From Candidatus Omnitrophota bacterium (GTDB lineage: Bacteria > Omnitrophota > Gorgyraeia > VGKN01): a stretch of DNA of 34,102 nt. The stretch spans positions 1 to 34,102 of the forward strand of contig JAGVOB010000097.1 in NCBI GenBank assembly GCA_020052955.1, read 5' to 3'. Below, one piece after another: positions 2,255-28,983 of this stretch (position 1 is its first letter; each line of letters opens with the position of its first letter). Below the pieces are notes generated by a model, which made no database searches, was not told the DNA's origin, and saw only the letters and a list, made by a program, of their open reading frames with translations. The position numbers and the translations under genes are program-made.

Positions 2255-2260
2255 TTCCTA

Positions 2261-2267
2261 ATCCTTT
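2261..2267 (-). promoter_or_regulatory. Ribosome binding site for the TTG start at 2254
   Basis: AAAGGA on the minus strand lies 7 bases before TTG. It decides the start, because there is no ATG in frame before the first TPR helix and a TAG lies two codons further upstream. A second purine run (TAGGAA) lies next to the start codon. Confidence 0.6.
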
Positions 2268-2354
2268 CTCTTTGTAGCCCTATGTAAGAGATAAACTTTG
2301 TATATTTTAAAATGAAATAAGTTTCTAAAGAATTTTGGCTTAAAAATACTCTGC

Positions 2355-3510: not shown

Positions 3511-3599
3511 ATTTACCTACTTTGCATTCTATCTGGACTAATCTAACTACATCTGTACGTTAGTTTTCAAGTTATATAATTAATTTAGTTAATATAACA

Positions 3600-4658: not shown

Positions 4659-4662
4659 ATTT

Positions 4663-7295: not shown

Positions 7296-7302
7296 AACGT
7301 TC

Positions 7303-8886: not shown

Positions 8887-8892
8887 ATTATT

Positions 8893-9933: not shown

Positions 9934-10123
9934 CGTTTTGCCATCCAACAAAATTCAGTCAATCTTTTCCTTTTTACAATGGCCTAGGGGTCTTCTATAA
10001 ATAAAACTCTTCCTAATTTTCTGTTGTTTATTCTTAAAAAACTGAATTTTTTCCCATTTTAACTAAAGACACGGCCTATTTGCATATTTTTGCGTTCCCA
10101 CAGTATTCCAGATAAAATTATGC

Positions 10124-11692: not shown

Positions 11693-11694
11693 GT

Positions 11695-13167
11695 CTACCT
11701 TCCATATACTTCTTGCTCATTTAACATTAAACTATGCTTTGGCATAACGCCCGATGTACATCTCAAGCTGCACCAGTTAAGGCTGCCACAATTTATAAGC
11801 CTCTGCCTGTATTTCTGCATAATGTCACTATTCCATATATCCTGCAAAGAATCTTTATTTACATTTCCGATGTGCTCCTCGCAAAAACCATACGGCTTTA
11901 CATTTCCGTCACGAAGTATATAAAGGCTCTTCCATGGCCAATAACATAACATATCCTTGCGCCCTGTCTTTGCATTAGGAGTGCTATTAGAAATATCTGA
12001 GCTATCAATCTCTGGCAGTTGATTAAATAATTTAAGCCCGATTTCCTCTGATTTTTTGACAAGTTTCGGCATAACATTTTTAATATAACTTAAAGCCTGT
12101 GGGTCATTATTTAAAAAAATATTTTCCTGCGTATCTGTATATCTAATCGGAATTATATTTAAGCAATCAAAATTATACTTTTCTGAAAACTTAACAAATT
12201 CTTCCAGTTCTATATAATTGGATTTCATCATAACGGCCTGTATTGTAATTGTCGAATGGGTTGGCATATCGCTATTTCGATATTTTGTCCTGTATTTATT
12301 AATAAGATTAATACTCATGATTAAATCCTCAAACTTTGCCCCATTCCTAATTTTTTCATAAGTTTTTTTATTGGTACCATCTATGGAATAAATAATATCT
12401 ACATTTGACCTTGCCAATTTTTCAGCCCAATCTTCATTAATAAGCAGTCCATTGGTAACTATAGTTTGGGATAGGGCTGGGTGCATGGAGGCCTTTTCAA
12501 ACAATTCCTCGAAATAATCCGAGAGAAACGGTTCTCCGCCTTGCCAATATATATATTTTAGATACGGCAGAATTTCTATAATCTCCTTTACTATTCTCTC
12601 GGGTATATCCCACGGTCTTTTACGGACCTCACACATGGTACAACCTATATTGCACCGATGCGTTAAAGTAACTCCGAGCACCATAGGCTTGGATTTTAGA
12701 AAGGTGCTTCTTTGCGAAATTTCAATTTCGTTCAAAATCATATTTTTGGAAAAACCATGCTTATTATATGGCTCCATGTTGCCGGCTCTCTCAAAATCGC
12801 TGACAGATAAACTGTACTCACCCTTTTCGCGATGTATCCATCCCAAGTTATAATAGATACACCCGTCATAAAGCTCATAATCTAAAGCGGTATTTAACTC
12901 TTTTAAAGCCTTATCATATTCACCCTTTTCGCAATATAACTTGGCCAAACCCAAGCGAACCTCATTATCATTACGCCCCAGTTTTAGCGCTTTTTTTAAC
13001 GATTCTATAGCCGAATCATTATCTTGAATATCATGATATAACCACGCCAATTCCAGATAAATATCGCTTGTGCCGTACCCAAGTTTTAGTGCCTTTTGCA
13101 ATTCTTCTATTGCAAGTCTATATTTTCTTTCTTTTTTATACTGTTTTGCAATTGATAAGCTATTCAT
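11695..13167 (-). CDS. TPR - radical SAM/SPASM protein (family A, altered SPASM)
   Basis: This is a 490-residue protein. Residues 1-135 hold about four TPRs with short spacers (YRLAIEELQKAL, NDSAIESLKKAL, YDKALKELNTAL, YSLSVSDFERAG). The linker (MILNEIEISQ...LKSKP) precedes cluster C172/C176/C179 (CNIGCTMC), RPWDIP, WQGGEPF, SIDGTN, MKSNYIELEEF and TQENIFL. It is the second family A member with GGEP. The SPASM region starts with CYWPWKS, but the PxCxC pair is replaced by KPYGFC, so one cysteine is missing; WCSLRC closes the domain. The auxiliary cluster may therefore have an open coordination site or a different ligand. Spacing to both neighbours is under 8 bases. Confidence 0.91.
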   Translation of the reverse strand: MNSLSIAKQYKKERKYRLAIEELQKALKLGYGTSDIYLELAWLYHDIQDNDSAIESLKKALKLGRNDNEVRLGLAKLYCEKGEYDKALKELNTALDYELYDGCIYYNLGWIHREKGEYSLSVSDFERAGNMEPYNKHGFSKNMILNEIEISQRSTFLKSKPMVLGVTLTHRCNIGCTMCEVRKRPWDIPERIVKEIIEILPYLKYIYWQGGEPFLSDYFEELFEKASMHPALSQTIVTNGLLINEDWAEKLARSNVDIIYSIDGTNKKTYEKIRNGAKFEDLIMSINLINKYRTKYRNSDMPTHSTITIQAVMMKSNYIELEEFVKFSEKYNFDCLNIIPIRYTDTQENIFLNNDPQALSYIKNVMPKLVKKSEEIGLKLFNQLPEIDSSDISNSTPNAKTGRKDMLCYWPWKSLYILRDGNVKPYGFCEEHIGNVNKDSLQDIWNSDIMQKYRQRLINCGSLNWCSLRCTSGVMPKHSLMLNEQEVYGR

Positions 13168-13174
13168 ACCAGTA

Positions 13175-14926
13175 CTATATTTCCCAACGCGTCATACATT
13201 CAGGCCGGCATATCTCTTGAAACTGATTTTTTAATATATTTTCCCTATAAAATTGGGCTTCCTCGCTGTTCCATATTTCATCCAGGGTGTTACTATAGAC
13301 ATTCCCTATAGGTTTTGAACAAGAACCTGTTAAATAAACGGTCCCCTTGTCGCAGATAAACATATACTTCCAGGGCATAATACAATGTAATTTTCCCTCA
13401 TCTGATAATAACTCATTAGCCTCCTTATCATTTTTAAAGGTATCAAATTTAAGGTCTAATGTGGGAAGTAATATGTCTAAATCAATAGAATAATCCCTGG
13501 CCTTTTGTTTTAGTCGAGGAATAGCATCAGTCAGATACTCTGATACCTTAGGATCCTGCTTGGAATAAATAATATTTTCTTCTGGATCATTATCAAGATG
13601 GATTGCCATAATGGAAAGTTGTTCAAAGCCGAATTCTTTGGCAAAATCCAGAAAATCCTCCAATTGGTGATAATTTGACTTCATAATTACTGCATTTAAT
13701 CTCATCGGCGTTTTAGATGAAAGTTTCTTGCGTATCTTGACTGCAAGCTTTATATTTGAAATCAGTTTCTCAAAACTTGCGCCTCTTCTTATGTATTCAT
13801 AAACGTCCTTGGTTACCCCGTCTACAGAAATGGTAAGTTCCGTATTCGCACTCATAATTTTTTCAATCCATTCTTCGGTTAATATTACGCCGTTGGTAAT
13901 TAACTGTTGCCGTAGGTTTGGAAAAACCGAAGCCTTTTGAAAAAGCTCATCAAAAGATTTATATAAAAAGACTTCTCCTCCTAACCACACTACACGTTCC
14001 AGATACGGATAGTAGTCTATTACCTCCTTTACTGTCTTTTCCGGTATATCCCATGGTGTTGACCAAAGGCCGCAGGTTCTGCACCTAATATTGCATTTAG
14101 ACGTGAGAGTGACCCAAAGACGCTTGACTTTAGACTTAAGAACAGTTTTTTTCTGCAGAATCTCAATTTCATTAAGGACGGAATCTTTAACGAACATACT
14201 ATCTGATCTCAAGCTAAGAATCTCCGAGGCCTCTTTATCGGACAGGTTATGCTTGCCTTGCAGTACATATAACTGCAGTAACTTCAGGCGCACCTTTGTA
14301 TCCAAGGGGCTCAACTTTTTTGCCTCAGTTATCTCTTTTACGGCAGATTCATAATCTTTTTCTTCCTCATATATACCACCTAGCTCCAAATGTACATGTT
14401 TATTGTCAGGATTTATTTTTGCAGCCTGCTTCAAATTTAAAAGCATCTTTTCCCTATTTTTCTTAGCTTTATAAATTTGTGAAAAACAAATATAAATTTC
14501 GCTGTTATCCTTATTAATAGCAAGCGCTTTATACAGTTCATTTAGGCCCTTGTCATAATCGCAATTTTTTATAAATATTTTACTTAATTCAATATGGGCC
14601 TGCTCATTCAAAGGAAATTTTTTGACAATCTCTTCAAACTCTTTTTGTGCAAGGTCATGGCTATTGCATAGATAGGATACCTCTCCTAATTCTTTAAGCA
14701 GTTCCTTATTGTTCGGATTAATCCTGACTGCCTCAATAAAATTCTTAGTAGCCTCGGAGCATTTATTCATCATCTTATAAATTTTCCCTATCTCAAAGAA
14801 GGCCATTTCGTTTGAACGGTTTTCTTCGCTTAAAACCTTTAATTTTTTCAAGGCCAAATCATATTTATTATCTTTAATATATCCATATGCTATCTTTAAA
14901 TATTCGGAGAAATCAATATTTTTCAC
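13175..14926 (-). CDS. TPR - radical SAM/SPASM protein (family A, longest TPR domain, altered SPASM)
   Basis: This 583-residue protein starts at GTG, with an AAAGGA site 8 bases upstream. Residues 5-240 hold about six TPRs (KINPDNKHVHLELGGIYEE is typical), the longest N-terminal solenoid of the group. The linker (VLNEIEILQ...LKSK) leads to cluster C278/C282/C285, read as CNIRCRTC. The following motifs are the most divergent in the family: WLGGEVF for WQGGEVF, and YKSF for the usual DYF. SVDGVT, MKSNYHQLEDF and DPEENII follow. The SPASM part begins CIMPWKY but has YLTGSC instead of PxCxC, and ICRPEC at the end. It is the first family A gene after the switch from family B. The 112-base gap upstream shows no promoter that I trust. 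Confidence 0.9.
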   Translation of the reverse strand: MKNIDFSEYLKIAYGYIKDNKYDLALKKLKVLSEENRSNEMAFFEIGKIYKMMNKCSEATKNFIEAVRINPNNKELLKELGEVSYLCNSHDLAQKEFEEIVKKFPLNEQAHIELSKIFIKNCDYDKGLNELYKALAINKDNSEIYICFSQIYKAKKNREKMLLNLKQAAKINPDNKHVHLELGGIYEEEKDYESAVKEITEAKKLSPLDTKVRLKLLQLYVLQGKHNLSDKEASEILSLRSDSMFVKDSVLNEIEILQKKTVLKSKVKRLWVTLTSKCNIRCRTCGLWSTPWDIPEKTVKEVIDYYPYLERVVWLGGEVFLYKSFDELFQKASVFPNLRQQLITNGVILTEEWIEKIMSANTELTISVDGVTKDVYEYIRRGASFEKLISNIKLAVKIRKKLSSKTPMRLNAVIMKSNYHQLEDFLDFAKEFGFEQLSIMAIHLDNDPEENIIYSKQDPKVSEYLTDAIPRLKQKARDYSIDLDILLPTLDLKFDTFKNDKEANELLSDEGKLHCIMPWKYMFICDKGTVYLTGSCSKPIGNVYSNTLDEIWNSEEAQFYRENILKNQFQEICRPECMTRWEI

Positions 14927-15038: not shown

Positions 15039-16340
15039 TTAAGCAAAGGGCAGCTCCCATTCGTCAAGCCAAAGGGGTGCCCAGCGTCTTTCTTCGCAAA
15101 CTATCATACATTTCCAGCATGGACAATTTTCCGAACCGCACTCTATAGCCTCGTCTAATAACTGGAAAGTATTTTGCGCTATATTCCCTATTTTAAACAT
15201 GCCGCCTTCTGCGCAACATCTATAAACATCTCCGTTAGGATAAATTCTTCCGTAGCTTTGTCCCATACGGCAGAATTTTCCTTTAGTAATATTTTTTTCT
15301 CCTTTTCTCCAGCCCATTACCAGCCTGCTTGCCTCATCTAAATTATAAATCTTAGAGATCTCCTCAATTTCATAAGCCCTGGGGTAACTCTTCCCATTAA
15401 ATTCACCAGAAAAAGGATGTGTTATAAAAGGAATATGCAGTTTTTCAAAAGGTTCTTTATATTCTTTTATTTTGTCTAAAAACGGCGGATAGGCCACACA
15501 AGAAACAACTAATTTAAACCCGCATTCATTAAGAACTTTTATCTTATCTACAAAATTTTCTATAGTACTAAATTCGGGATGAAAACTAGCATCTATCCTA
15601 ACCATTTCGGGGCTCGCTACCTTAGCAAACTCACTAACATCGAAAGAAAGATTTGTATTGATCTGAAGAAGATGTTGCCGTGAAACCTTTGCAACTAATT
15701 CAATAAATAAAGGGTACATAGACGGTTCCCCGCCGTCAAGCCGTATTCTACAAGAGCCATATTTCCCGTATATATTATCCCAAATCCTTATCCATTCATC
15801 CAAGCTAAGGTATAACGCCTTATTTTGATTTTTCTCGTCAAAAAGAAGCTTTTCCGGTTTTGGGGCATAGCAATAAGAACATCTGTAATTACATTCATAA
15901 TGCATACCCCAGGTAAAGAAAACACGATACGGCGCAATTTCTTTACGAAATCCATTTATGCATTCTCTATTTTTTATCCACTTATTTAACTTCTTATTGC
16001 AGGGATTAATCTTTAAGGCCTCTCTTAACTCTTGCATAGCTATGCCATAATTTCCACGAAGCCAATAAATTCCTCCGAGACAGATACAGACCTGTTCTTT
16101 CTGTTCACTGTTTAAGGTCATAGTCAAAGCTTCCCTAAATTCTTTTTCGGCATTGCCAAAATCCAGTTTGTTTCTGTATAACTTCCCTAGTTCAATCCGT
16201 GCCCAGATATTACCCGGATTCACATCCAGAGCTTTCTTAAACTTTTCTATTGCCATATCCCAGGCTTCATTTTTAATGCATAGGTACCCTTCTTTAAGAT
16301 ATGCCTGCTCTTCTTCGAACAAAACGTTTTCTTTATTCAT
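15039..16340 (-). CDS. TPR - radical SAM protein (family B)
   Basis: This 433-residue protein is the only family B member with TPR repeats. About three lie in residues 10-125 (WDMAIEKFKKAL, FGNAEKEFREAL, YGIAMQELREAL). The rSAM core starts with FFTWGMHYE and cluster C150/C154/C157 (CNYRCSYC), then LDGGEPSMYP, TNLSFD, a SFHPEF motif and a SCVAYPP strand. The C-terminal Cys site has FCRMGQ, IYPNGDVYRCC, IGNI and ENCPCWKCM, ending in a Trp-rich tail (ERRWAPLW). This tail and the CRMGQ start match modules 2 and 3 of the triple-rSAM protein at 18905, so they form a subgroup. It overlaps the gene upstream by 8 bases. It looks like a bridge between the two families: a family B core on the TPR domain typical of family A. 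Confidence 0.9.
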   Translation of the reverse strand: MNKENVLFEEEQAYLKEGYLCIKNEAWDMAIEKFKKALDVNPGNIWARIELGKLYRNKLDFGNAEKEFREALTMTLNSEQKEQVCICLGGIYWLRGNYGIAMQELREALKINPCNKKLNKWIKNRECINGFRKEIAPYRVFFTWGMHYECNYRCSYCYAPKPEKLLFDEKNQNKALYLSLDEWIRIWDNIYGKYGSCRIRLDGGEPSMYPLFIELVAKVSRQHLLQINTNLSFDVSEFAKVASPEMVRIDASFHPEFSTIENFVDKIKVLNECGFKLVVSCVAYPPFLDKIKEYKEPFEKLHIPFITHPFSGEFNGKSYPRAYEIEEISKIYNLDEASRLVMGWRKGEKNITKGKFCRMGQSYGRIYPNGDVYRCCAEGGMFKIGNIAQNTFQLLDEAIECGSENCPCWKCMIVCEERRWAPLWLDEWELPFA

Positions 16341-17139
16341 TTTCTAAAATCCATTGTGACTCTATGGGGCAGTAATCCTTTATACAATGTAAAGGTTCTT
16401 TATATAACATAAAATCCTTATCTAAAATATTTCCGACCGATCCGTCGGAATACTGACTGCACCTGTCAACCCTTCCATCTGTTCTAATAACTGCATAATG
16501 CTGACCTGCCCTGCAAAGCCTCCCTTTCGGAGAAATTCTCTGCAGTTGATACAACAATTTCTCCCCCTTATAAGGGCTTACCTCTTCAACAATTTTTTTC
16601 TCAGCCTCTGAATTAAGGACAAATCCATTTCCCCGCAGGGGTAGTGGTATAAGGCTTATGCCTTCCTTTTTGAATTTTCTACTTCTCTCCGGCATTTCTT
16701 CTATCTGGCCCGGATATGCCACATAATATATCTGAAAATTAGGCAGGTATTCCTTAATTCTAACAGCCCTCTCAAAAAACTCTTCAAATTTAGCAAAGGC
16801 GGGATGAAACGTCGGGGCAATCCGTAATACATTATTGGAAATCTCGGGTATCAGCTTATCCGTATCCCATGATAAATTTGTGCAAATCTCCAGCGTATGC
16901 TCGTCAGATAACATCCTTGCTAATTCAAAAAAATCCGGATATGTGCTTGGCTCACCACCTGATACAAATATATGAGCACTGCCATATTTTTTATACAGGT
17001 CGTGCCAGATATGCCGCCATTCCTGCGGAGATAGTAAAATATCCTTTCCGGATTTCTGCTCCCAGACGCCGCAATAAGGACAACGGTAGTTGCATGTATA
17101 GCATAGATCCCACCCAAAAGTTATTTTTCCATTATTCAT
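16333..17139 (-). CDS. Stand-alone radical SAM protein (family B, last Cys lost)
   Basis: This 268-residue protein is a single module. FGWDLCYT leads to cluster C16/C20/C23 (CNYRCPYC), followed by VSGGEPSTYP, TNLSWD, FHPAF and YYVAYPG. The C-terminal site has LCRAGQ, RTDGRVDRC and VGNI, then DYCPI where the relatives have xCPC, so the final cysteine is missing. The auxiliary Fe-S site may be three-coordinate or lost. Its ATG overlaps the upstream stop as ATGA, and its own end overlaps the next start by 8 bases. The substrate is unknown. Confidence 0.88.
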   Translation of the reverse strand: MNNGKITFGWDLCYTCNYRCPYCGVWEQKSGKDILLSPQEWRHIWHDLYKKYGSAHIFVSGGEPSTYPDFFELARMLSDEHTLEICTNLSWDTDKLIPEISNNVLRIAPTFHPAFAKFEEFFERAVRIKEYLPNFQIYYVAYPGQIEEMPERSRKFKKEGISLIPLPLRGNGFVLNSEAEKKIVEEVSPYKGEKLLYQLQRISPKGRLCRAGQHYAVIRTDGRVDRCSQYSDGSVGNILDKDFMLYKEPLHCIKDYCPIESQWILENE

Positions 17140-17993
17140 CGTTCAACCAATAAAAAAGCCCATTCGTTACAGGGACAATATCGCGAGGTACACAAGATGG
17201 CCTTATCCAACAATTTAAACTCAGGGTCAAAGATGTTACCCAAAGGGCTATCCTCTCTTTCCCAGCTTCCGCCACCGCATCTTAACGCCTTGCCATCCGG
17301 ATGAATAGTCGCATAAGTACAACCGGCATTACATTTTTTTCCATATGTTATTACTGGTTTAAGTTGAAAGTCTTCTCCGGAACGTATTCCCAAATTCGGA
17401 CTTATTATCTCTTTTTCCCTTTCCGTGTAAGATTCGGGATAACGCTTACCGTTATATTCTCCCCAAAAAGTAAGAACTGAGAGACGAAAATCCTTATCTG
17501 CAAATTTAGCCATATAATCTAACAGGTCTTCTATCTGAGGCGGCCAGGCAAGATACGTTATTCCAATGGAAAAATTATTATCCCGCAATAAAACAGCTTT
17601 TTTTATAAATTCTTTAAAATCAGCGAACAGCGGGTGAAAAGTTGCATTAAACCTTAATTTATCCCTGTTCTCTTTTAATCCATAGACCAACCCGCCCATA
17701 TCTGCCGAAAGATTAGTATTAATTGTTATAGCATGATACGAGGTAAGCGCTGATAAAAATTCGATAAAACCGGGATATATCATAGGTTCGCCTCCTGATA
17801 TATCAATACGTGCGGGGCCGTATAAATCATATATTCTCTTCCAGACAGAAATAAGTTTATCAATCCCGGGATAGTGATTATGTTTTGAAATTTCGCCCCA
17901 CCGTCCGTGCCACCAGCAATAAGGACAGCGATAGTTACACTTCCAGTGGATATCCCATGAAAAACCTATTGTACCGTTTTTTTCGCTATTCAT
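17136..17993 (-). CDS. Stand-alone radical SAM protein (family B)
   Basis: This 285-residue protein is numbered from the ATG at 17993; a GTG lies directly before it in frame. FSWDIHWK leads to cluster C19/C23/C26, WWHGRW, ISGGEPMIYP, TNLSAD, TFHPLF and TYLAWPPQ. It has a FWGEYNGKRYPESYTE stretch almost identical to module 1 of the protein at 18905, its closest relative here. The C-terminal site is KKCNAGCTYA, HPDGKALRCG, LGNIFD and RYCPCNEW. The end overlaps the next gene by 4 bases. The Shine-Dalgarno site is weak. Confidence 0.88.
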   Translation of the reverse strand: MNSEKNGTIGFSWDIHWKCNYRCPYCWWHGRWGEISKHNHYPGIDKLISVWKRIYDLYGPARIDISGGEPMIYPGFIEFLSALTSYHAITINTNLSADMGGLVYGLKENRDKLRFNATFHPLFADFKEFIKKAVLLRDNNFSIGITYLAWPPQIEDLLDYMAKFADKDFRLSVLTFWGEYNGKRYPESYTEREKEIISPNLGIRSGEDFQLKPVITYGKKCNAGCTYATIHPDGKALRCGGGSWEREDSPLGNIFDPEFKLLDKAILCTSRYCPCNEWAFLLVER

Positions 17994-18020
17994 CACTTTA
18001 AGATTTAAGCTCTATGAATC

Positions 18021-18875
18021 CTATATAATCCATCTGAATTCACAAGGGCAAATTTCCTGTGTGCAAGAGTACGGCTTGTCATATAATTTAAATTTACTAT
18101 CAAAGAGATTGCCAATCTTACCATTATCAGAATTCATTGCATAACGGGCACATCTGTAAACGGTACCATCATTATCTACGCGAGCATAGGATTGCCCCGC
18201 CTTGCATAATCTATCCTTGCTTCGGACCTGGATTAAATGTTTTTTGACTCTTTCCTTATGCTCCGTGCTTAAATCCATAGTCGAATCATAAACAATTTTC
18301 ATTTCTTCCTCAGTATGCGCAGAAGGATACTCGTTCCCATTATAGCTACCTCTGAATGGCAGGGGGATAAAATACAAACCGTTTTCCAGAAATCTCTTTT
18401 TGAAATATTTCATTTTTTCTAGCTGTGGAGGATAAGTAACATACTGGATACAAATATTGCTTACTCCGTTTTTCTTCAAAAATAATGCTTTCTCCAAGAA
18501 GACATCAAAATCTGCAAAGAGAGGATGAAAACTTAATCCCAATGAAACATTGGTTATGTCTACATTATTAATAAAATCAATTAAAATTTTTTTGCTGCAG
18601 GATAAATTTGTATCAAAACCAACTGAAATACGCTTTGATAAAACCTTAAGTAATTCCAAAAAGCAGGGGTAACAAAACGGTTCTCCCCCCGTAATAAGCA
18701 AGCGTACATTTTTATAACTTTTGGCGATTTTTCCCCATGCCTCTGTCCATTTTTCCAGCGGAAAGTATTTATTCCTTTCATCAACGGTTTCCCACATACC
18801 GTCAAAAAAACAATACGGGCAGCGATAATTACATTTATAATGAACCAACCACTCAAATTCAATATTTTGAATCAT
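18021..18875 (-). CDS. Stand-alone radical SAM protein (family B)
   Basis: This is a 284-residue protein. FEWLVHYK leads to cluster C15/C19/C22 (CNYRCPYC), followed by FFDGMW, ITGGEPFCYP, TNLSCS, SFHPLF and QYVTYPPQ. The C-terminal site has LCKAGQSYA, DNDGTVYRC, IGNLFD and EICPCEF. A clean AAGGAA site lies 5 bases before the ATG, one of the better ribosome sites in the array, and 24-29 bases separate it from each neighbour. Because the domains match module by module, it probably acts on the same class of substrate as the other family B enzymes. Confidence 0.89.
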   Translation of the reverse strand: MIQNIEFEWLVHYKCNYRCPYCFFDGMWETVDERNKYFPLEKWTEAWGKIAKSYKNVRLLITGGEPFCYPCFLELLKVLSKRISVGFDTNLSCSKKILIDFINNVDITNVSLGLSFHPLFADFDVFLEKALFLKKNGVSNICIQYVTYPPQLEKMKYFKKRFLENGLYFIPLPFRGSYNGNEYPSAHTEEEMKIVYDSTMDLSTEHKERVKKHLIQVRSKDRLCKAGQSYARVDNDGTVYRCARYAMNSDNGKIGNLFDSKFKLYDKPYSCTQEICPCEFRWII

Positions 18876-18904: not shown

Positions 18905-21835
18905 CTATTCGGTTTTTCTGGGCGTTGCCCAATGTGACAACCATTCTTCTTCTTTACCTTCAATCATAGCCGTCCAGCAAGAACACTCCGGGTATTCGCA
19001 AAGCCTTGGTTCGTCATAGAGAGAGAATGTCCTATCAATAATATTTCCCAATACCCCTCTCTTGTCAATATAACAACATCTATACGCATCGCCGTTTGGA
19101 TGAATTTTAGTATACATCTGCCCCATCCTGCATATTGCACCGGTCCTGCAAAGTTTTTTCTCTCCGCCATAAGATTCCAGCATGCGCGGAGCTGTTCTTG
19201 GATCACAATCTCTAATCAGTTCTTTTTCGGCCTCGGTATACCCTTTAGGATATTGCCTGGAATTATATTCTCCCCGAAAGGGCATAACGTCAAAGGAGAT
19301 ATGGTGACATTCAAAAACCTTCTTACACTCTTTCATTTCCTTTAATTGTTCCGGATAGGCAACATAATTAACGCCTATATCAAAACCTTTCTGTTTTAGT
19401 AGTAAAACCTTGCTTAAATACGCATCCAATGAAACAAATTTCGGATGAAATGCGGTTGCAAACTTTACATTACCGGGTTTTATCTTTGCCGTAAATTCAG
19501 AAATATCGAATGATAAATTAGTATCAAATTCAACGCTAAAACGCTTTATCAAATGGGCTACTATATCAATAAACGCCGGATACGTAAAAGGTTCTCCTCC
19601 GGAAATGTGTATATGCCCCTCGCCATATCTTTTAAAAATATCATCCCAGATATCCTGCCATTGATGCAATTCAAGATAACGATTTTCCTTAGATATCTCA
19701 TCCCATCTTTTACTGAAAAAACAGTAGGTGCAACGGTAATTACACGCATATTGAATATCCCATGTAAAAAATATTCTCCCTGGCTGAACAAGCTTACAAT
19801 CAACATTATCCAATTTTTTATCAGCCTTGGGTGCATCCTTTTTAACCGCACTATTAACTACCGCAACATCACGGGAATCAAGTTTTAATGTTTCATTTCT
19901 ATTTATAAAATCTCTCATATATTCTGTCCTGTAGATAGGATGTTCAGAGGCTTCCCAAAGAGACAGCCACTTATCTTCCTCATCGCCCACAAGCATACTT
20001 TTAAAGCAAGGACATTTATCTGCCTCACAGGGTTTTGGCTCATCGAATAATCTAAAATTCAGATCAGTTATATCTCCCAAAATCCCTATGACTGCGCTAT
20101 CTTTTCCTACGGCACAGCACCGCGAAACTTTTCCATCGGGATGAATCTTTGCATACATCTGCCCCATCCTGCAGAGATTTCCCCGCTTTTCTCTATTTTC
20201 GTCCTCCTTTTTTACATGCCATTCATACCACCTGCTGTTTAGTTCGTTTAGGTGGGTATTAATAGAGTCTCCCGAGAGACCCTCCATCAGACACTTTTCC
20301 TTAGTCGTATAATCACGCGGAAGAAACCTATTCTGAAATTCACCCTGATAAGGTATTACCTTAAACATAATCCCCTTCCCCTCTGCGATTGACTTATATT
20401 TTTTAATTTTCTCAAGGTGGGGCGGATATGCAACATAAGCAATCGTAGACGGGTAACCATTCTTATGCAAAAAGATGACTTTTTCTAAAAAGGGGTCTAT
20501 TTCATTAAATTCTGGATGAAAGCTTGCAGAAATAGATATACCTCCCGGCTTCACCTTTGTTGCAAAGTTTGTAATATCAAAACTTAAATTTGTAGTAATA
20601 TCAACAGTATGTCTTTCCAAAAGAATTGCTACCAGATCAAAGAAATTCGGATATATAGTAGGTTCTCCGCCTGAAAACCTTACGTGAGAACACCAATATT
20701 TTTTAAATACTTCATCCCAAATCTTTCTCCATGAGTCAACAGTTACGCTTTCAAAAAAAGTATGCTTTTCCTCCTTGCCCTTTTTCCACCAAGGGCAATA
20801 AGAACACTGATAATTACACTTATAACTCAATTCCCAATTCCAGTGTACACGATAAGGAGGACTTGAACGTGGGTATTTGGGAGCTTCAATAATAAAATTT
20901 TGGGAAGCATCTTTCGATTTGCTTGCTTTGACATCTACAACCGTTATTTTTTCTTCTTCGGCTACTCCTTGCGCACCTTCAATTATGATCGGACTTTCAT
21001 AATGCGTCGTGTTTTCAATAATATTGTCATACTCATCGCATGGACAATAATCGGAACTACATAGTACCGGCTGGGTAAAAAGTTTGAAATTTTCATCCAA
21101 AATATTACCTATTGATTTCTCGCCCAAAGGACCGCATCTAACAACGTTGCCATCCGCCTGAACGCTTGCATACCTGTAGCCAGCATTGCATAATTTACCT
21201 CTGGGGCTTTTTGCATTCAAATGATATTTAACCCTGTCGGCATCCCCCATAAAAGGCCTCATCATTTCCCTTTCTTCTTCCGTATAAGATTCCGGATATT
21301 TTTTACCGTTATATTCACCCCAAAATGCCGCCAGGGCAAAACCTATCCCTTCTTTTTTAAACCTTTCACTTAAATACCCGATCTTGTACATCTGCGGCGG
21401 GTAGGCAAGATAACAAACCCCTCCCTTAAAATCCGCTTTCTTTAAAATTAAGGCCTTTCTTATAACCGTCTCCAGATCTATAAAAAGAATATGAAAGTTC
21501 AAATCCAAATCCACCCTTTCCGGATTAATCTCTTTTGCAAAATAGTCAATATCTCCGGATAAATTAGTGGTTATCTTCACCAAATGTATAGAGGAAAGTT
21601 TTTTGACTAATTCAATAAAATTCGGATATATAAAAGGTTCTCCTCCGACTATCTCTATTTTTACTTCTCCATATTTGTCATAAATTCTCTTCCAATGCAC
21701 CATCCACTCGTCAGGGGAAAGATAGACATTGCGCCTGCCCATATTTGCCCAGTCTTTATAAAACCAGCAATAGGGACATCTGAAATTACATTTATAGTGT
21801 ATATCCCAGCTAAAATGAATTATATTATGTCTCAT
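18905..21835 (-). CDS. Triple radical SAM protein: three family B modules in tandem
   Basis: This 976-residue polypeptide contains three complete family B modules. Module 1 (1-270) starts FSWDIHYK with C16/C20/C23 and ends CPCDEYD. Module 2 (about 325-645) starts WNWELSYK with CNYQCSYC near residue 338, and has FSGGEPTIYP, TNLSFD, SFHPEF, CRMGQMYA and CPCFKSM. Module 3 (about 685-970) starts FTWDIQYA with CNYRCTYC near residue 697, and has ISGGEPFTYP, TNLSFD, AFHPKF, CRMGQMYT and CSCWTAM. All three keep the CxxxCxxC cluster, GGEP and the C-terminal cysteines, so all may be active. The linkers (about 275-320 and 645-680) are low in complexity and rich in Lys, Glu, Asp and Ala. Modules 2 and 3 share a Trp-rich tail and are more like each other than like module 1. 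It overlaps the gene upstream by 4 bases. No stops interrupt it. Confidence 0.92.
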   Translation of the reverse strand: MRHNIIHFSWDIHYKCNFRCPYCWFYKDWANMGRRNVYLSPDEWMVHWKRIYDKYGEVKIEIVGGEPFIYPNFIELVKKLSSIHLVKITTNLSGDIDYFAKEINPERVDLDLNFHILFIDLETVIRKALILKKADFKGGVCYLAYPPQMYKIGYLSERFKKEGIGFALAAFWGEYNGKKYPESYTEEEREMMRPFMGDADRVKYHLNAKSPRGKLCNAGYRYASVQADGNVVRCGPLGEKSIGNILDENFKLFTQPVLCSSDYCPCDEYDNIIENTTHYESPIIIEGAQGVAEEEKITVVDVKASKSKDASQNFIIEAPKYPRSSPPYRVHWNWELSYKCNYQCSYCPWWKKGKEEKHTFFESVTVDSWRKIWDEVFKKYWCSHVRFSGGEPTIYPNFFDLVAILLERHTVDITTNLSFDITNFATKVKPGGISISASFHPEFNEIDPFLEKVIFLHKNGYPSTIAYVAYPPHLEKIKKYKSIAEGKGIMFKVIPYQGEFQNRFLPRDYTTKEKCLMEGLSGDSINTHLNELNSRWYEWHVKKEDENREKRGNLCRMGQMYAKIHPDGKVSRCCAVGKDSAVIGILGDITDLNFRLFDEPKPCEADKCPCFKSMLVGDEEDKWLSLWEASEHPIYRTEYMRDFINRNETLKLDSRDVAVVNSAVKKDAPKADKKLDNVDCKLVQPGRIFFTWDIQYACNYRCTYCFFSKRWDEISKENRYLELHQWQDIWDDIFKRYGEGHIHISGGEPFTYPAFIDIVAHLIKRFSVEFDTNLSFDISEFTAKIKPGNVKFATAFHPKFVSLDAYLSKVLLLKQKGFDIGVNYVAYPEQLKEMKECKKVFECHHISFDVMPFRGEYNSRQYPKGYTEAEKELIRDCDPRTAPRMLESYGGEKKLCRTGAICRMGQMYTKIHPNGDAYRCCYIDKRGVLGNIIDRTFSLYDEPRLCEYPECSCWTAMIEGKEEEWLSHWATPRKTE

Positions 21836-22680
21836 GTATCTATGCTCCGCATTAAATCTCCCTCTTCAAAAATTTTATCTTCATCACAGGGACATATCTC
21901 TAAATTACAAGGTCTGTCTTCCGGTAAAAGCTCAAAGTTACCATCAAAAAAATTTCCAATTATACCATTATAAAACAGCTGTCCGCAGCGCGCTACAGCC
22001 CCATCGGGAAGCAATTCAGCGGTTTTCCTCCCAGCTTGACAAATTTTTCCCTTCTTTCTAATCTTATTGAACCAGTCTGGATCTATGGCCATAATCTCTA
22101 TTTCTTCTTCTGAATAACTCCAGGGATAGGCATTGCCCTTATATATGCCCCTGAAAGGTATCACCTTAAGCCTCTCTTTTATTTTATCAAATTCCTGCAT
22201 ATAAAATTCGATATTGCGTATATATGGGGGATAGGCCAAAAGATTCGTACATCCTTTAAAGCCGTTGTCCCTCAAAAACCTGGCTTTTTCCAAAAAACTA
22301 TTCAGAGTATCAAAATCGGGATGAAAGCTAACAGTGATCGAAACTTTTTCTGAATTAACTAACCTTACAAATTTCTTCAAATCACCTGAGGCATTCGTTG
22401 TAATATTAACCGGATAATGCATGCCGGATAAATCTCTCACTATCTCTATGAAATTAGGATACGTAAAAGGCTCTCCCCCCGTTATCAAAATAGCAAAACG
22501 TCCATATCTTCTATAAAGCCTCTTCCAGTGATTATTCCACTCATTCAAAGAAGCGTACTTATTGCGCTCTTTCAGTATATCCCATCCGCATCCTTCATAA
22601 TAAAAACAATACGGGCATCTATAATTACAATGATAATGGGTAAGCCATGTAAAGCGACTATTTATAACATTTTTTATCAT
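21832..22680 (-). CDS. Stand-alone radical SAM protein (family B, TNAS type)
   Basis: This is a 282-residue protein. FTWLTHYH leads to cluster C18/C22/C25 (CNYRCPYC), then FYYEGCGWD, ITGGEPFTYP, TNASGDL, SFHPDF and NLLAYPP. The C-terminal site has ICQAGR, LPDGAVARCGQ, IGNFFD and EICPCDEDKIFEE. It is closest to the middle module of the protein encoded just upstream at 22692. They share TNASG (TNLS in the other family B modules), KVIPFRGIYKG or KIIPFCGMYKG, a WFNKxRKKG stretch and the CPCDEDK ending. It looks like a free copy of that internal module. Its ATG lies 11 bases from the upstream stop. Confidence 0.9.
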   Translation of the reverse strand: MIKNVINSRFTWLTHYHCNYRCPYCFYYEGCGWDILKERNKYASLNEWNNHWKRLYRRYGRFAILITGGEPFTYPNFIEIVRDLSGMHYPVNITTNASGDLKKFVRLVNSEKVSITVSFHPDFDTLNSFLEKARFLRDNGFKGCTNLLAYPPYIRNIEFYMQEFDKIKERLKVIPFRGIYKGNAYPWSYSEEEIEIMAIDPDWFNKIRKKGKICQAGRKTAELLPDGAVARCGQLFYNGIIGNFFDGNFELLPEDRPCNLEICPCDEDKIFEEGDLMRSIDT

Positions 22681-22691
22681 TTATTGGCATT

Positions 22692-25600
22692 TTAGCTGTC
22701 TATAGTCAATATTTTTTCCAGACGTTCTTTTTCCCCTCTGCGTATAACGTGCGACTCAAAGTCGTTTATACTGCTGGGATTTGCCCTAAAACAATGATTA
22801 AAGCAGGAATTGCATTGCTCAAGCAATGACCTCCTTAAATTCTGATAATAGCGACCATTCCATATTTCCATAAAATTCCTATTATCCGACAAAATTTCAT
22901 TACAATCCTCTGAAGCATCGCACGGCAGTACATGCCCTTGCATATCAAACATTATCTGGCTCCATGCTTCACGGCATGGGCCTAAGCTGGGATATACCTG
23001 CTGCTCAAACTTAGGAGGAAGGGTTATCCTTATCTTCAAATGATTCGCCAGGCTAGCCGCCTCTTCAAGTTTACTATTTGTAATTTCCTGTTTGAAAAAA
23101 CAAGAAAGAAATTTTTGCTCATAATTATATATATAATTGTAATAGCATATAACCCTATCAACGCCCATGCTGGCCGCAAGGCGGACAAAGTTTGATAAAT
23201 TTTCAACATTGAGCGCCGTTGCTACAAATATCAGGTTAATCTTTAGATTTTCTTTTCCGTTGCGCAATTTAAGCAGGTAGTTGATCTGTCCTAAAATTTT
23301 ATGGAAATTCTCTGTGTGCGTAAGCCTTTTGTGTAAAGCAGCATTGCTCGCATGTAAAGAAATATGGATAGTATACCTGCTCCTGCTATTAACAATTTTT
23401 TCACATATTCGTGGAATTAATGAGGAGCCGTTGGTGGAAAAACATTTTTCGACATCCGGAAAATTGGTATCAAAGAAATCCAATATATCCCCTGCGCCGG
23501 CAAGTTGTAAAAATTCACCCGAGCCTGTTAAGAAAAGTGTTTCGGACTTGGCGATAAACGGATAAAGATTTTTTTCAAAACGTTTACGGTGCTTATCCAG
23601 ACTGAACATTTCATATTCAGCTTCCCGGGAGCAAAAAACACAATTAGAATTACATGGCCCGGCAACTTGAATAAATATCGACTTAGGAGAAGATTCTAAA
23701 ATTATCTTACCCTCGCTATACTCTTTATCATTTAATAAAGAATTATTGCCATTCCCGTTCGCGGGAATAATAGCCATATTATTGTTTTGATTTTCAAATA
23801 TAACCTTCGCAGGCTCTTCTTCTCCAAACAGTTTATCTTCATCGCATGGACAAAATTCCGCATCACAAGGTAATTTTTCATCTAACAGGCTGAAGTTACG
23901 GTCAAAAAAATTACCTATAATCATTTTCTCGCCTATTTGTCCACATCGTGATACTTTGCCATCCGGGAAAACCAACGCTGAATCAAATCCTGAAGGGCAA
24001 ACCGAACCTTTTTTCCTTGTTTTATTAAACCAATTATTGTCAACCCCTATTGCGCGTTTTTCTTCATCGGTATATGCAAAAGGATACTCTTTACCTTTAT
24101 ACATGCCGCAGAAAGGAATAATCTTTAGGCCTTCGCCTATTGAGCTGAACCGTTCGATATAATGCTCAATATCCTTTATGACGGGAGGATAGGCAACAAA
24201 ATTTATACAGCCTTTGAATCTATTTTTTCTTATTAACCTTACTTTATCCAGAAACAAATCTATCTTATCGAAGTAGGGCTGAAAACTTACTGAGAGCGAA
24301 ACTCTTTCCGGGTCAATCTTATTAAGAAACGCGGTTAGGTTACCAGAGGCATTGGTTGATATGTTTATAGGATAATGTTTTTGGAAAAGCTTCTCAATTA
24401 ATTCAATAAAATTCGGATAAATAAACGGTTCTCCACCTGTGATAAGAATATAACATCTCCCATAACGCTCATAAATTCTATTCCAATAAATCATCCATTC
24501 GCTTACAGAAAGGTAGATATTTCTATTTTTATATTCATCCCATTTCCCCTCAAAAAAACAGTAGGGGCAGGAATAGTTGCAGTCATAATGTATATTCCAG
24601 GTAAAACGCCTTTGGATATCCTCTTTTTTTGATACCCTGTGCGTTGGATATGACTCACCGCGGGATATCTCATCCGGATCTTTAACCTTTTTTTTAAGTT
24701 CAAAGTCTACAAGAGAACCATTGGATTTTAGCTTATCCGAGCAATATTTGATCTTATTAGAGATAGTCTCATTCTCTTTATCAATTTCGCAATATCTTAA
24801 AAAACAATCCAATGCCTTTTTAAAATCTCCGCTATATTCGTAATAGTGGCCAAGATTAAACCAACGGTCGAGTTCTACGGAAGTTTGCACGCCACAACCG
24901 ACTTCAATCCCCAGAGAAGACGCCAAGCTGCAGAATTCTTCGCATCTCCTAAGCCTTTCCGGGTATGTACTGCTGCCATCTTTACTAGTCCAGTATAAGT
25001 GGTTAGGGGCATCCGGATTAATATTAAACTCATCTAAATGGCCAGCTAAATAACTAAATTCTTCGATGGCACAAAAAGTTCTAGAAGGATAAACCCTGTC
25101 TAGATAAGCAGAGTTTCTTTTTATAAAATTCAGGGTCATTTGGAAGTCTTCTTCGGTCTCCCCCGGAAAACCAAACATAAAATTGCAGGTTACTATAATT
25201 TTAGCCTCATGCAACTCTTTGACTATCCGATCAGCATCCGATATTTTGAAATTTTTTTTCATTAATCGTAATACGTTCGGAGAGCCTGACTCTATACCGA
25301 ATAAGACATGCTCGCAACCGGCTTCTTTCATTTTTTCTATTATATCAAAGGTCATATCCTGCCTTATGATCATATTAGCCGTCCATGCTATATTAAGCTT
25401 TGCCTTTATCAAGCATTCGCAGAATTCTACAAGCGACTTCATGCTTCCATTAAAAAGCAAATCTACAAAATCGATATGGCTAAAATGAGAATTTATCTTT
25501 CTCTGTTGATTTATGTGGAATTGTATCTCTTCAAAAATTCGCTTTCCGCTCATCGCCCTGTATCCCTTCCAGAATGAACGGGAGCTGCAGAAGGCACAAT

Positions 25601-26285
25601 TCAATATGCACCCCCTGCTGGCCATAAAAGGGACATGACGCGAGTCATCATAATCTCCTAGCGGCAAACCGCTGAAATCCAAAAATGGAAGGTTGTCTAA
25701 ATCCGGCATTAATTCTCTAGGCTCATTAACTATAGTTCTATCTCCATTTTTAAAGACAATGCCCTTGCAAGACGAGATATCCTTTTTGTTTTCAAGATAT
25801 TGGAGCAATTCGCAGAACATAACTTCGCCTTCACCTTTTACGGTGATATCTATGCTTGGCTCATCCAATACTGATACAGCGAATTTTTCGTCAAAAAAGA
25901 GGGGGCCTCCGAAAATAATGATAATTTTATCGTTACTTTGTTTAATCCTTTTTGAAATTTCAATGCTGGCCAGACGCGAAGAAGCATTTAGTGAGAACCC
26001 CACAACCTGAACTCCGCTATCTATTATATCTTTGATATACCCGTCTATGATTTTGCTGTTATCTTCGAAAAATTTCCTAACGCATTCTGGGTCATACCAG
26101 AATTGACTTTGCTCCCAGGCCCACATATCTTTATAATTCTCAGTTCGTCTCAAATACAGTTTAATGTTCATATCCAATACAAAAAGCTCATGCCCCTCAC
26201 TCTTTAAACAAGCGGAAAGCTGAGCTATGGATAGGGGAGGATCATATGTACCCCATGCCGGGGCTTGAATAAGGGTAACTTTCAT
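22692..26285 (-). CDS. B12-binding radical SAM fused to two further radical SAM modules
   Basis: This 1197-residue protein has four parts. Residues 1-180 are a cobalamin-binding-type Rossmann domain (VTLIQAPAWG, IIIFGGP) without the DxHxxG lower-ligand motif. Residues 200-450 are a B12-type rSAM core (MASRGCILNCAFC, FGIESGS, GFPGETEEDF). A short TPR-like stretch follows (about 480-515). Residues 550-820 are a family B module (CNYSCPYC near 565, ITGGEPFIYP, TNASGNL, CPCDEDK). Residues 850-1197 are a third rSAM core (CNSNCVFC near 880) with TGSGEF in place of GGEP, SLHASN, and a SPASM-like end (CREAW, LPCDASEDC, CNSCFNHC). B12-rSAM enzymes often add methyl groups to unactivated carbons; that role is inferred here. 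The third module is a relative of the last module of the giant protein at 29031. Confidence 0.92.
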   Translation of the reverse strand: MKVTLIQAPAWGTYDPPLSIAQLSACLKSEGHELFVLDMNIKLYLRRTENYKDMWAWEQSQFWYDPECVRKFFEDNSKIIDGYIKDIIDSGVQVVGFSLNASSRLASIEISKRIKQSNDKIIIIFGGPLFFDEKFAVSVLDEPSIDITVKGEGEVMFCELLQYLENKKDISSCKGIVFKNGDRTIVNEPRELMPDLDNLPFLDFSGLPLGDYDDSRHVPFMASRGCILNCAFCSSRSFWKGYRAMSGKRIFEEIQFHINQQRKINSHFSHIDFVDLLFNGSMKSLVEFCECLIKAKLNIAWTANMIIRQDMTFDIIEKMKEAGCEHVLFGIESGSPNVLRLMKKNFKISDADRIVKELHEAKIIVTCNFMFGFPGETEEDFQMTLNFIKRNSAYLDRVYPSRTFCAIEEFSYLAGHLDEFNINPDAPNHLYWTSKDGSSTYPERLRRCEEFCSLASSLGIEVGCGVQTSVELDRWFNLGHYYEYSGDFKKALDCFLRYCEIDKENETISNKIKYCSDKLKSNGSLVDFELKKKVKDPDEISRGESYPTHRVSKKEDIQRRFTWNIHYDCNYSCPYCFFEGKWDEYKNRNIYLSVSEWMIYWNRIYERYGRCYILITGGEPFIYPNFIELIEKLFQKHYPINISTNASGNLTAFLNKIDPERVSLSVSFQPYFDKIDLFLDKVRLIRKNRFKGCINFVAYPPVIKDIEHYIERFSSIGEGLKIIPFCGMYKGKEYPFAYTDEEKRAIGVDNNWFNKTRKKGSVCPSGFDSALVFPDGKVSRCGQIGEKMIIGNFFDRNFSLLDEKLPCDAEFCPCDEDKLFGEEEPAKVIFENQNNNMAIIPANGNGNNSLLNDKEYSEGKIILESSPKSIFIQVAGPCNSNCVFCSREAEYEMFSLDKHRKRFEKNLYPFIAKSETLFLTGSGEFLQLAGAGDILDFFDTNFPDVEKCFSTNGSSLIPRICEKIVNSRSRYTIHISLHASNAALHKRLTHTENFHKILGQINYLLKLRNGKENLKINLIFVATALNVENLSNFVRLAASMGVDRVICYYNYIYNYEQKFLSCFFKQEITNSKLEEAASLANHLKIRITLPPKFEQQVYPSLGPCREAWSQIMFDMQGHVLPCDASEDCNEILSDNRNFMEIWNGRYYQNLRRSLLEQCNSCFNHCFRANPSSINDFESHVIRRGEKERLEKILTIDS

Positions 26286-26310: not shown

Positions 26311-28983
26311 TTAAATCGTCGGATATTGTAACGTTGATGCGGTATCCAGATTAATCATGCCTAACTGTCTACAGTTAATACAGATATTACCAGTTTTATT
26401 ATTATAAATTCTCTTATTTGCTATATATTTCCTTGCAGTATGGTATTTTTCATTATTCCAAATATCCTTAAACGGCTGCTCTAATATGTTTCCAAAGTCA
26501 TCTTTCTCGTCCTCAACGGAACAGCAGGCTGAAATAGAGCCGTTTGAATTAACGGTTAACGCCTCCCAGGGCCAATTACAAAAAATTTCCTTGGATGGCT
26601 TAAAATATTCTGATGTAAATTCGTTTTCTATCACTGTCTTTTTGTAATTACTATACTCTTCATTTAAAGGGATCCACTCTTTATTTCCTATAAAAGCCTT
26701 CGTGATACCTACTGCATCCACGCCAATAGCCTTGCCCAATTCTTTAACGTTTTCTATCTCATGCTCATTATGCCTAAATACCAAAAATTGCCACGTTATA
26801 TGGGGGTTTTTCTTGCCAAGCTTTCTTTTTTTATCAATTAACATCTTTAGATTGTTAATAGCCTTACTGAAATCCCCTCCAACTCTATATTTAGAATACG
26901 TTTCTGGACTTGCTCCGTCAATCGAAACTATAAGCCTATCCAGCCCCGAAAGAACCAATCTTTCGGCATCTTCCTCACAAAACTCGTTTAAATTCGTATC
27001 AATCTTTGTATCCGCATTAAATTTCTTTGCATAAGTAATCATATCAAACAATTCTTTATTCAAAAAAGGTTCTCCCCAATTACAAAAATCTATATGAATA
27101 AGATAGCGCCCCAATTCATCCATTATCTTTTTGAAATCCTTAAAGGATAAAACCCTTTGTGGGCGCGAATTCCTTTGTTGGCCGGTTGGACAAAAGGGGC
27201 ATCTTAGATTACATATATTGGCAGGGTCTACGGTTAGCCAGTACGGGTAACCAAATACAGAACTGTTCCTTTTGTCAAGTTGGACGTTTATTATCATATA
27301 ATTAAGCAGCTTTTCCCAAAACCTTCTTTTAGACAGATTATCAATCATAAATTTCTGTAACTCGCCAAACTCATAATCAAATTTCGTACATAAGGATTCA
27401 TAAATATTTTCTGCTTCAGGGACGGATATTTTGTTTGAATACTCTAATTCTTTTACTGAGTTAATGGTTTTCTCTAGCGCCCCTATATTAAGGGGCAGAA
27501 ATTCGGTTGACAGGCAGGCCTTATGATAATCTTTTTTATAATTATAATAATCGTTCAGTAATACCCATTTGTCCGGTTTGTGCCTTAAAACTCCCGATGC
27601 CTCGGGAAGGCCTAAAGACAGGGCAAGGTAGCAAAACTCTTCATACCGCCTGAATCTCTCCGGATAGGTATTGACATTGTTGGCCTCCCAAAACAAAGAA
27701 TTATCTATATGTTTTATCTCGAACTCGCTGGAATTGCAGTAGAGATACGTTCCCTTGTCAATAACACAAAAAGACTGGCTAGCTAACACAGAATCCATAT
27801 TTTCTCTATTTCTTGTTAAAAACTTTAATGTTTCCTGAAAATCATCTTCAGTTTCAGATGGTATACCAAACATAAAATTTGCCTGTATCTCTATTCCCGC
27901 TTCACGCGTGTCCTTTAATACCCTCTCGGCATCGCTTATCTTAAAACGCTTGTTCATGCTGTTTATAACTCTCTGTGAACCGCTCTCTATGCCGTAACCA
28001 AGCCAGGTACAGCCGGCTCGTTTCATTTTTCCCAATAACTCTTTTGTCATCTCCGGACGTATTACAGCCTGACCTGCCCATTTTATTTTTATATTGTTCT
28101 CTATTATTAAATCACAGAACCTGGATATTGCCTTTATATCCCCGTTTAAAAGCGACCCTATAAAATAGAAATAATAAACTTTTGGGAAATTAGTAACCTG
28201 ATGCAGGATTTCTGCGAACATTCGCTCTCCGCTCATCGAGCGGAATTTCTTCCAATATTGCCACTCACTGCAAAAATGACATCTCATAAAACAGCCTCTG
28301 CTATCAAAAATCTCAAGGCGATGAGGCTCTCTATAAAGGCCTGCTTCAATATCTTCTTTAAAGTCGGAATAATCCGGGAATGGCAAGGCATCCAGATATC
28401 TCACAACCTCTCTCTCTCCGCAATCGATAATATCTCCGTTTTTACGCACGAGAAGCCCTTTGCAGGAATCCAGTTCTTTCTTAGAGTCTAATATTTTCAC
28501 TATCTCAAGTATCGTAAAATCTCCCTCGCCCAATGCTACAGCATCTATAAATTCATTTCTTGCTATATCAAAACCTCTTAATTCTCTCGAGCAGTATGGC
28601 CCCCCAAAGATTATAATCCTGTTTTTATCGAGTTCTTTTATTCTCCTGGCAACCTCTAGGCTGATTAGAAAGGAGCTAAAATGAACGGTAAAACCTATAA
28701 TCTTTGCATCTGTCTCTAAAATTTTGTTTATTTGTCCAGAAATAATTTCTTCATTTACCTTAACAAAGTCTGATATTGATTCCGTATCTGTCCAAAAAGA
28801 ATAGAAATCCTTATCATCCCACATCTTCCTGTATTCCATAGGACTTAAATGATATAGCTTGTTGTTTATATCAAAACAAAAAGCAGTATGGCCATCGCTC
28901 CTAAGCAAAGCGGAAAGCAGGGCCATGGCGTAGGGGGGGCAATCCCTTCCCCATGCGGGACACTGGACAAAAGCAACTTTCAT
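26311..28983 (-). CDS. B12-binding radical SAM fused to a radical SAM/SPASM module
   Basis: This is an 890-residue protein. Residues 1-170 form the cobalamin-binding-type domain (VAFVQCPAWG, FDINNKLYHL, IIIFGGPY) without DxHxxG. Residues 200-450 are the B12-type rSAM core with DSRGCFMRCHFC, YGIESGS and FGIPSETEDDF. The stretch 450-570 is helical and matches the same region of the protein at 22692. Residues 575-880 are an rSAM/SPASM module: CNLRCPFC near 589, NWGEPF, DTNLNE, SIDGAS, then CNWPWEA, SACCSVED, FGNI, DIWNNEKY and CINC. The first 500 residues are paralogous to those of the protein at 22692, while the C-terminal module is of another subfamily, so one front end carries different tails. 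B12-rSAM front ends are known from methyltransferases in natural-product and lipid pathways; the substrate here is unknown. Confidence 0.92.
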   Translation of the reverse strand: MKVAFVQCPAWGRDCPPYAMALLSALLRSDGHTAFCFDINNKLYHLSPMEYRKMWDDKDFYSFWTDTESISDFVKVNEEIISGQINKILETDAKIIGFTVHFSSFLISLEVARRIKELDKNRIIIFGGPYCSRELRGFDIARNEFIDAVALGEGDFTILEIVKILDSKKELDSCKGLLVRKNGDIIDCGEREVVRYLDALPFPDYSDFKEDIEAGLYREPHRLEIFDSRGCFMRCHFCSEWQYWKKFRSMSGERMFAEILHQVTNFPKVYYFYFIGSLLNGDIKAISRFCDLIIENNIKIKWAGQAVIRPEMTKELLGKMKRAGCTWLGYGIESGSQRVINSMNKRFKISDAERVLKDTREAGIEIQANFMFGIPSETEDDFQETLKFLTRNRENMDSVLASQSFCVIDKGTYLYCNSSEFEIKHIDNSLFWEANNVNTYPERFRRYEEFCYLALSLGLPEASGVLRHKPDKWVLLNDYYNYKKDYHKACLSTEFLPLNIGALEKTINSVKELEYSNKISVPEAENIYESLCTKFDYEFGELQKFMIDNLSKRRFWEKLLNYMIINVQLDKRNSSVFGYPYWLTVDPANICNLRCPFCPTGQQRNSRPQRVLSFKDFKKIMDELGRYLIHIDFCNWGEPFLNKELFDMITYAKKFNADTKIDTNLNEFCEEDAERLVLSGLDRLIVSIDGASPETYSKYRVGGDFSKAINNLKMLIDKKRKLGKKNPHITWQFLVFRHNEHEIENVKELGKAIGVDAVGITKAFIGNKEWIPLNEEYSNYKKTVIENEFTSEYFKPSKEIFCNWPWEALTVNSNGSISACCSVEDEKDDFGNILEQPFKDIWNNEKYHTARKYIANKRIYNNKTGNICINCRQLGMINLDTASTLQYPTI

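Follow-up and report, generated by a model that had tools for sequence, protein, structure and literature searches.

Organization of the locus

The window (the whole stretch of DNA analysed here, 34,102 bp from an uncultured Omnitrophota bacterium) is a single directon. The 20 ORFs with the domains described below all lie on the minus strand, separated by gaps of no more than 172 bp and with several overlaps of 4-11 bp. About 25 radical SAM (rSAM) domains are found in this locus, beside glycosyltransferases (GTs). The directon contains nine modules of an STM4011-like family and ten copies of a TPR/rSAM-SPASM protein (one of them split). It also encodes a GT2-GT4-rSAM-rSAM protein and rSAM domains of the B12 and SPASM types. 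One protein of 976 aa carries three of the family modules, designated M1, M2 and M3. The features are as follows, with the basis of each assignment in parentheses.

2..14926, minus strand: second paralogous array of TPR/rSAM-SPASM proteins, ten copies, one split (profile)
15039..16340, minus strand: TPR repeats and module, 433 aa (Pfam, profile)
16333..17139, minus strand: stand-alone module, 268 aa, last C-terminal cysteine missing (CPI) (motifs, profile)
17136..17996, minus strand: stand-alone module, 286 aa (profile)
18021..18875, minus strand: stand-alone module, 284 aa (profile)
18905..21835, minus strand: 976-aa protein, three STM4011-like radical SAM and twitch-like modules (ORF, Pfam, profile, motifs)
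18929..19795, minus strand: M3, residues 681-969 (profile, AlphaFold2 model)
19796..19954, minus strand: linker 2, about residues 628-680 (L001 comparison, pLDDT)
19955..20869, minus strand: M2, residues 323-627 (motifs, profile, tree)
20870..20989, minus strand: linker 1, about residues 283-322 (L001 comparison, pLDDT)
20990..21835, minus strand: M1, residues 1-282 (motifs, profile, tree)
21832..22680, minus strand: stand-alone family module, 282 aa, its ORF sharing 4 bp with the beginning of the triple (ORF, profile)
22692..26285, minus strand: 1197-aa protein, B12-binding rSAM, STM4011-like module and third rSAM (SPASM-type) (Pfam, profile)
26311..28983, minus strand: 890-aa protein, B12-type rSAM and SPASM rSAM (Pfam, profile)
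29031..34102, minus strand: GT2-GT4-rSAM-rSAM protein, truncated at the contig end (Pfam, profile, overlap with contig C169)

The split TPR/rSAM-SPASM copy (2355-3510) consists of overlapping ORFs at 2355-2993 and 2983-3510 and is either a decayed gene or a sequence error. A further TPR/rSAM-SPASM set with one module is found on contig C93 (L052). The genome from which the window is derived (232 contigs, 2.38 Mb) has 108 Radical_SAM matches.

A protein of three radical SAM modules

The 976-aa protein begins with an ATG and has no internal stops. An earlier note, made from the sequence alone, had read it as three intact rSAM modules; Pfam, the family profile and the motifs agree. Pfam Radical_SAM (PF04055) matches three stretches of the protein, and a profile built from modules of the STM4011-like family itself matches residues 1-282 (413 bits), 323-627 (383 bits) and 681-969 (395 bits). 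Each module combines its Pfam match with a CxxxCxxC motif (CNFRCPYC at residue 16 in M1, CNYQCSYC at 340 in M2 and CNYRCTYC at 698 in M3), which places it in the Radical SAM superfamily. GGEP is found at residues 64, 389 and 746, respectively, and TNLS is kept in all three modules. The C-terminal cysteines have the pattern C-x17-C ... C-x4-C-x-C throughout (M1: C216/C234/C259/C264/C266; M2: C555/C573(574)/C603/C608/C610; M3: C902/C920(921)/C946/C951/C953). Only the first part of the Pfam SPASM model matches the protein, with no stretch passing alone. FHP is the one site for which the note's claim of complete preservation fails: M2 and M3 have FHP, whereas the motif reads FHI in M1 and FHV in the M1 of L001, a relative described below.

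The best curated profile for the modules is that of the STM4011 family (NF038073), with an alignment that spans nearly the whole model. The modules of the window score 48-84 bits each, however, far below the cut-off of 200, and no Wzm/Wzt setting is described for this family in the literature consulted. The whole 976-aa protein reaches 204 bits because the scores of its three modules add up. Caution is warranted here, as whole-protein scores can carry a multi-module protein past a family cut-off that none of its modules reaches. For the viperin family (NF038283), three stretches together give 111.5 bits (cut-off 180). Membership in both families was rejected on these scores, and by profile comparison the modules are best classed as relatives, not members, of the STM4011 family. 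A search of plasmids for relatives gave one weak STM4011 match, in Methylobacterium (25% identity).

Conservation and origin of the fusion

L001 (JAHISH010000182.1), a contig of an independent Omnitrophota MAG, encodes M1-M2-M3 in this order in one frame (61% identity to the window). M1 and M2 are complete in L001, and M3 is cut by the contig end after CNFRCPYC. Collapsed or misjoined repeats might be suspected in so paralogue-rich a locus, but the probability of such an artefact is negligible: the in-frame order in L001 contradicts misassembly of the triple, and M3 (35% identical to M1 and 40% to M2 as protein) is too different to collapse. The triple is a real, conserved and unusual fusion inside a striking radical-enzyme locus. 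In the phylum search, contig G315:C36 had gene positions as in L001; its genome belongs to the class of the window. The 1197-aa protein at 22692-26285 is a second three-rSAM protein, and its middle module is a separate gene in L001.

Between the window and L001, 199 of 275 residues are identical in M1 (72%) and 186 of 299 in M2 (62%). The corresponding figures are 7 of 43 (16%) for linker 1 over residues 276-325 and 11 of 48 (23%) for linker 2 over residues 628-684. Nonsynonymous distances, from a comparison in which synonymous sites are saturated, are 0.19 for M1 and 0.30 for M2, and 1.37 and 0.76 for the two linkers. Low nonsynonymous change in modules relative to linkers is the pattern expected of selected, folded modules joined by free tethers. 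The same values bear on the idea that the fusion mainly fixes stoichiometry, with at least one module being structural or regulatory. The loss of the FHP proline in M1 would fit this idea, but the low nonsynonymous change in M1 and M2 and the retention of cluster and SAM motifs in all three modules make it very improbable. Across the phylum, 66 modules were compared: the CxxxCxxC cysteines are kept in 66 of 66, the GGEP residues in 63-66 and the four main C-terminal cysteines in 62-66. Judged by sequence, each module of the triple is probably a working enzyme.

Tandem rSAM proteins are not rare in this family, contrary to what the earlier note had stated. Two-module ORFs number 13 in 8 sampled Omnitrophota genomes (G293, G261, G114, G233, G163, G273, G158 and G237), and two rSAM domains are also known to be fused in FbiC. 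The triple goes furthest: in a census of sampled Omnitrophota loci, three family modules in one ORF were found in the window and L001 only.

A phylogeny of the three modules with their stand-alone neighbours, a check that the note had suggested, was built from 64 modules. M1 groups with stand-alone genes (G114_5142 and G244_9059) and with modules that form the second half of two-module proteins in G293, G261, G163, G273 and G233. M2 groups with modules of G233, G114 and L001, and M3 lies in a larger group that includes M2. M1-M3 as a single clade is rejected by the AU test (p = 1e-5). As M1-M3 do not form one clade, recent tandem duplication was ruled out as the origin of the triple. By this tree, its modules are old, distinct paralogues, neighbours in the locus that became fused in varying combinations.

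Linkers and predicted structure

The linkers are charged and flexible-looking, as had been noted. Charged residues make up 28% and 39% of the two linkers, which are poorly conserved relative to L001 and have a pLDDT below 50 in the full-length model (low segments include residues 276-327 and 609-686). Structure prediction, another check suggested in the note, returned three modules with equal element order, joined by disordered linkers. The AlphaFold2 model of M3 alone is confident (pLDDT 83.7). It has the partial TIM barrel of rSAM enzymes, and its top matches are solved rSAM enzymes. These are anSMEcpe, PqqE, MoaA, the twitch dehydrogenase SpeY and viperin, with modest TM-scores of about 0.5; TigE and a sactipeptide maturase are also matched. 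SpeY is matched by sequence as well as by fold (about 15% identity).

The note had suggested successive or alternative reactions on one held substrate, and a triple of this kind could indeed pass a substrate along the protein from one site to the next. The conserved order of the modules at 61% identity and the intact sites in each of them are consistent with such a scheme, but it is unlikely to apply. Relatives of M1 and M2 occur alone or with other partners elsewhere, the linkers are disordered and unconserved, and the full-length model, with a pTM of 0.37 and a shallow alignment for M2 and M3, says nothing firm on packing and lends no support to a fixed arrangement. Because the modules are old paralogues that are separate or differently fused elsewhere, and because the linkers are floppy, covalent channelling is not required. 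That the modules act in one pathway is a safer claim than that they share one held substrate.

Association with polysaccharide export genes

The right end of the window (34053-34102) is identical to the start of contig C169 (L089:1-50) over 50 exact bp. The joined frame is open and encodes a protein of 2099 aa with the organization GT2-coiled coil-GT2-GT4-rSAM-rSAM; an equivalent protein in G233 has 2077 aa. From the matching ends, the join is likely to be real, although the overlap sits in repetitive coiled-coil DNA, which counts against it. Genes for a Wzt_C protein, Wzt and Wzm follow the joined frame in C169, which by way of this putative join puts O-antigen-type export genes upstream of the directon. 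The order Wzm-Wzt-GT-rSAM recurs in three other genomes (G114, G158 and G233). Adjacent Wzm, Wzt, Wzt_C and GT genes, the hallmark of a Wzm/Wzt-dependent polysaccharide locus, are thus found in these three genomes and, through the 50-bp overlap, in C169.

Fusions make the same connection. In G244, the gene that immediately follows Wzm and Wzt (L061:8717-10630) encodes a 638-aa protein in which an STM4011-like rSAM module is combined with the C-terminal domain of Wzt (PF14524, 120 bits). The fusion partner of modules in G013 and G102 is GT2-GT4. Across 384 genomes, high-scoring modules occur in 16, GT-linked rSAM domains in 13 and both in 11 (hypergeometric p 6e-16, kinship ignored); few candidates were scored per genome, so that matches per genome are lower bounds. 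The locus likely makes a modified surface polysaccharide, a setting that the earlier note had not brought up.

Some observations count against a glycan substrate. G322 and G346 encode a GT-rSAM protein and gave no high-scoring module match. A simple glycan would seem to need fewer than the nine family modules of this locus, and the best structural matches of the modelled module, at modest TM-scores, include peptide modifiers such as anSME. The modules might instead mature a peptide or protein, in a RiPP-like or sulfatase-maturase-like manner, with the glycan genes being incidental or modifying the same protein. Top structural matches that would suit this function are anSMEcpe, PqqE, TigE and the sactipeptide maturase. 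For the B12-type rSAM parts, the highest-scoring model is that of a RiPP C-methyltransferase, with scores short of its cut-off. Several members carry TPR repeats, which often bind proteins, and on a G346 contig (L094:9893-10436) two PqqD-like small proteins are encoded beside an rSAM gene, near the GT-rSAM protein. Peptide maturation is nevertheless doubtful, as the fusions to Wzt_C and GT2-GT4 point to glycans and a scan of the two largest gaps of the window, in which all gaps are 172 bp or less, revealed no convincing ORF for a RiPP precursor.

Proposed model

The model that we favour, with modest confidence, is a natural fusion of three STM4011-related rSAM paralogues that are working enzymes and tailor, in the cytoplasm, a surface polysaccharide exported by Wzm/Wzt. 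The sequences show intact modules, their conservation, the history of the fusions and the order of the genes; catalysis, a glycan substrate and the type of reaction are features that we infer. The motifs, read with established rSAM chemistry, suggest three catalytic sites. In each module, a [4Fe-4S] cluster at CxxxCxxC would cleave SAM, and the resulting 5'-deoxyadenosyl radical would abstract a hydrogen atom of the substrate. The C-terminal cysteines, in a twitch-like auxiliary domain, would bind a second cluster that handles the other electron. The modules would epimerise or dehydrogenate growing or terminal sugars at their C-H bonds. Fusion through flexible linkers would tether them, providing co-production and proximity, and the B12-type rSAM enzymes of the locus would work alongside, possibly in C-methylation.

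Sugar epimerisation or dehydrogenation, with fusion for proximity, is favoured on the gene setting, taken with the precedent of NeoN and the modified chain end in O-antigen export. NeoN is a known rSAM enzyme that acts on a finished oligosaccharide, an aminoglycoside (PMC10991966). In O-antigen export, a modification at the chain terminus is often required and is read by a carbohydrate-binding part of the transporter (PMC9445017). A bolder extension, which is conceivable but tentative, is that some Omnitrophota have a radical assembly line in which about 25 rSAM domains write sugar marks that Wzt_C reads to license export. Nine domains of one family, fused singly, doubly and triply, would take part in this line together with B12-type enzymes.

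This rSAM family has repeatedly given rise to chains of two or three fused enzymes, and gene order as well as fusions to Wzt_C and GT2-GT4 tie it to O-antigen-type export. If the modules do act on glycans, Omnitrophota are a large and untapped source of radical enzymes that modify sugars. The existence of single modules of about 285 aa makes the question testable.

Comparison with known systems

Searches for tandem rSAM proteins or for rSAM enzymes in Omnitrophota found nothing that matches the triple. Nor was a description found of rSAM trains in Omnitrophota polysaccharide loci, which is weak evidence of novelty since subscription literature lay mostly outside the search. The locus resembles ABC transporter-dependent O-antigen loci in that Wzm, Wzt, Wzt_C and GT genes adjoin the rSAM genes. 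Such loci are known to arrange their catalytic modules in diverse ways (PMC11231755), but a dense rSAM series was not found described for them in the literature searched.

The twitch rSAM enzymes that act on sugars or aminocyclitols (SpeY, NeoN, HygY and BtrN) are similar in size to the modules and belong to the C-H epimerisation or dehydrogenation class. They differ in their low similarity (about 15% to SpeY), in belonging to antibiotic pathways and in being single-module proteins.

FbiC, the CofG-CofH fusion that acts as FO synthase, carries a pair of complete rSAM domains in a single protein; the two are fused in many bacteria and separate in archaea (PMC11917521). However, FbiC joins two dissimilar domains that together make one defined product, whereas the window protein joins three paralogues of one family.
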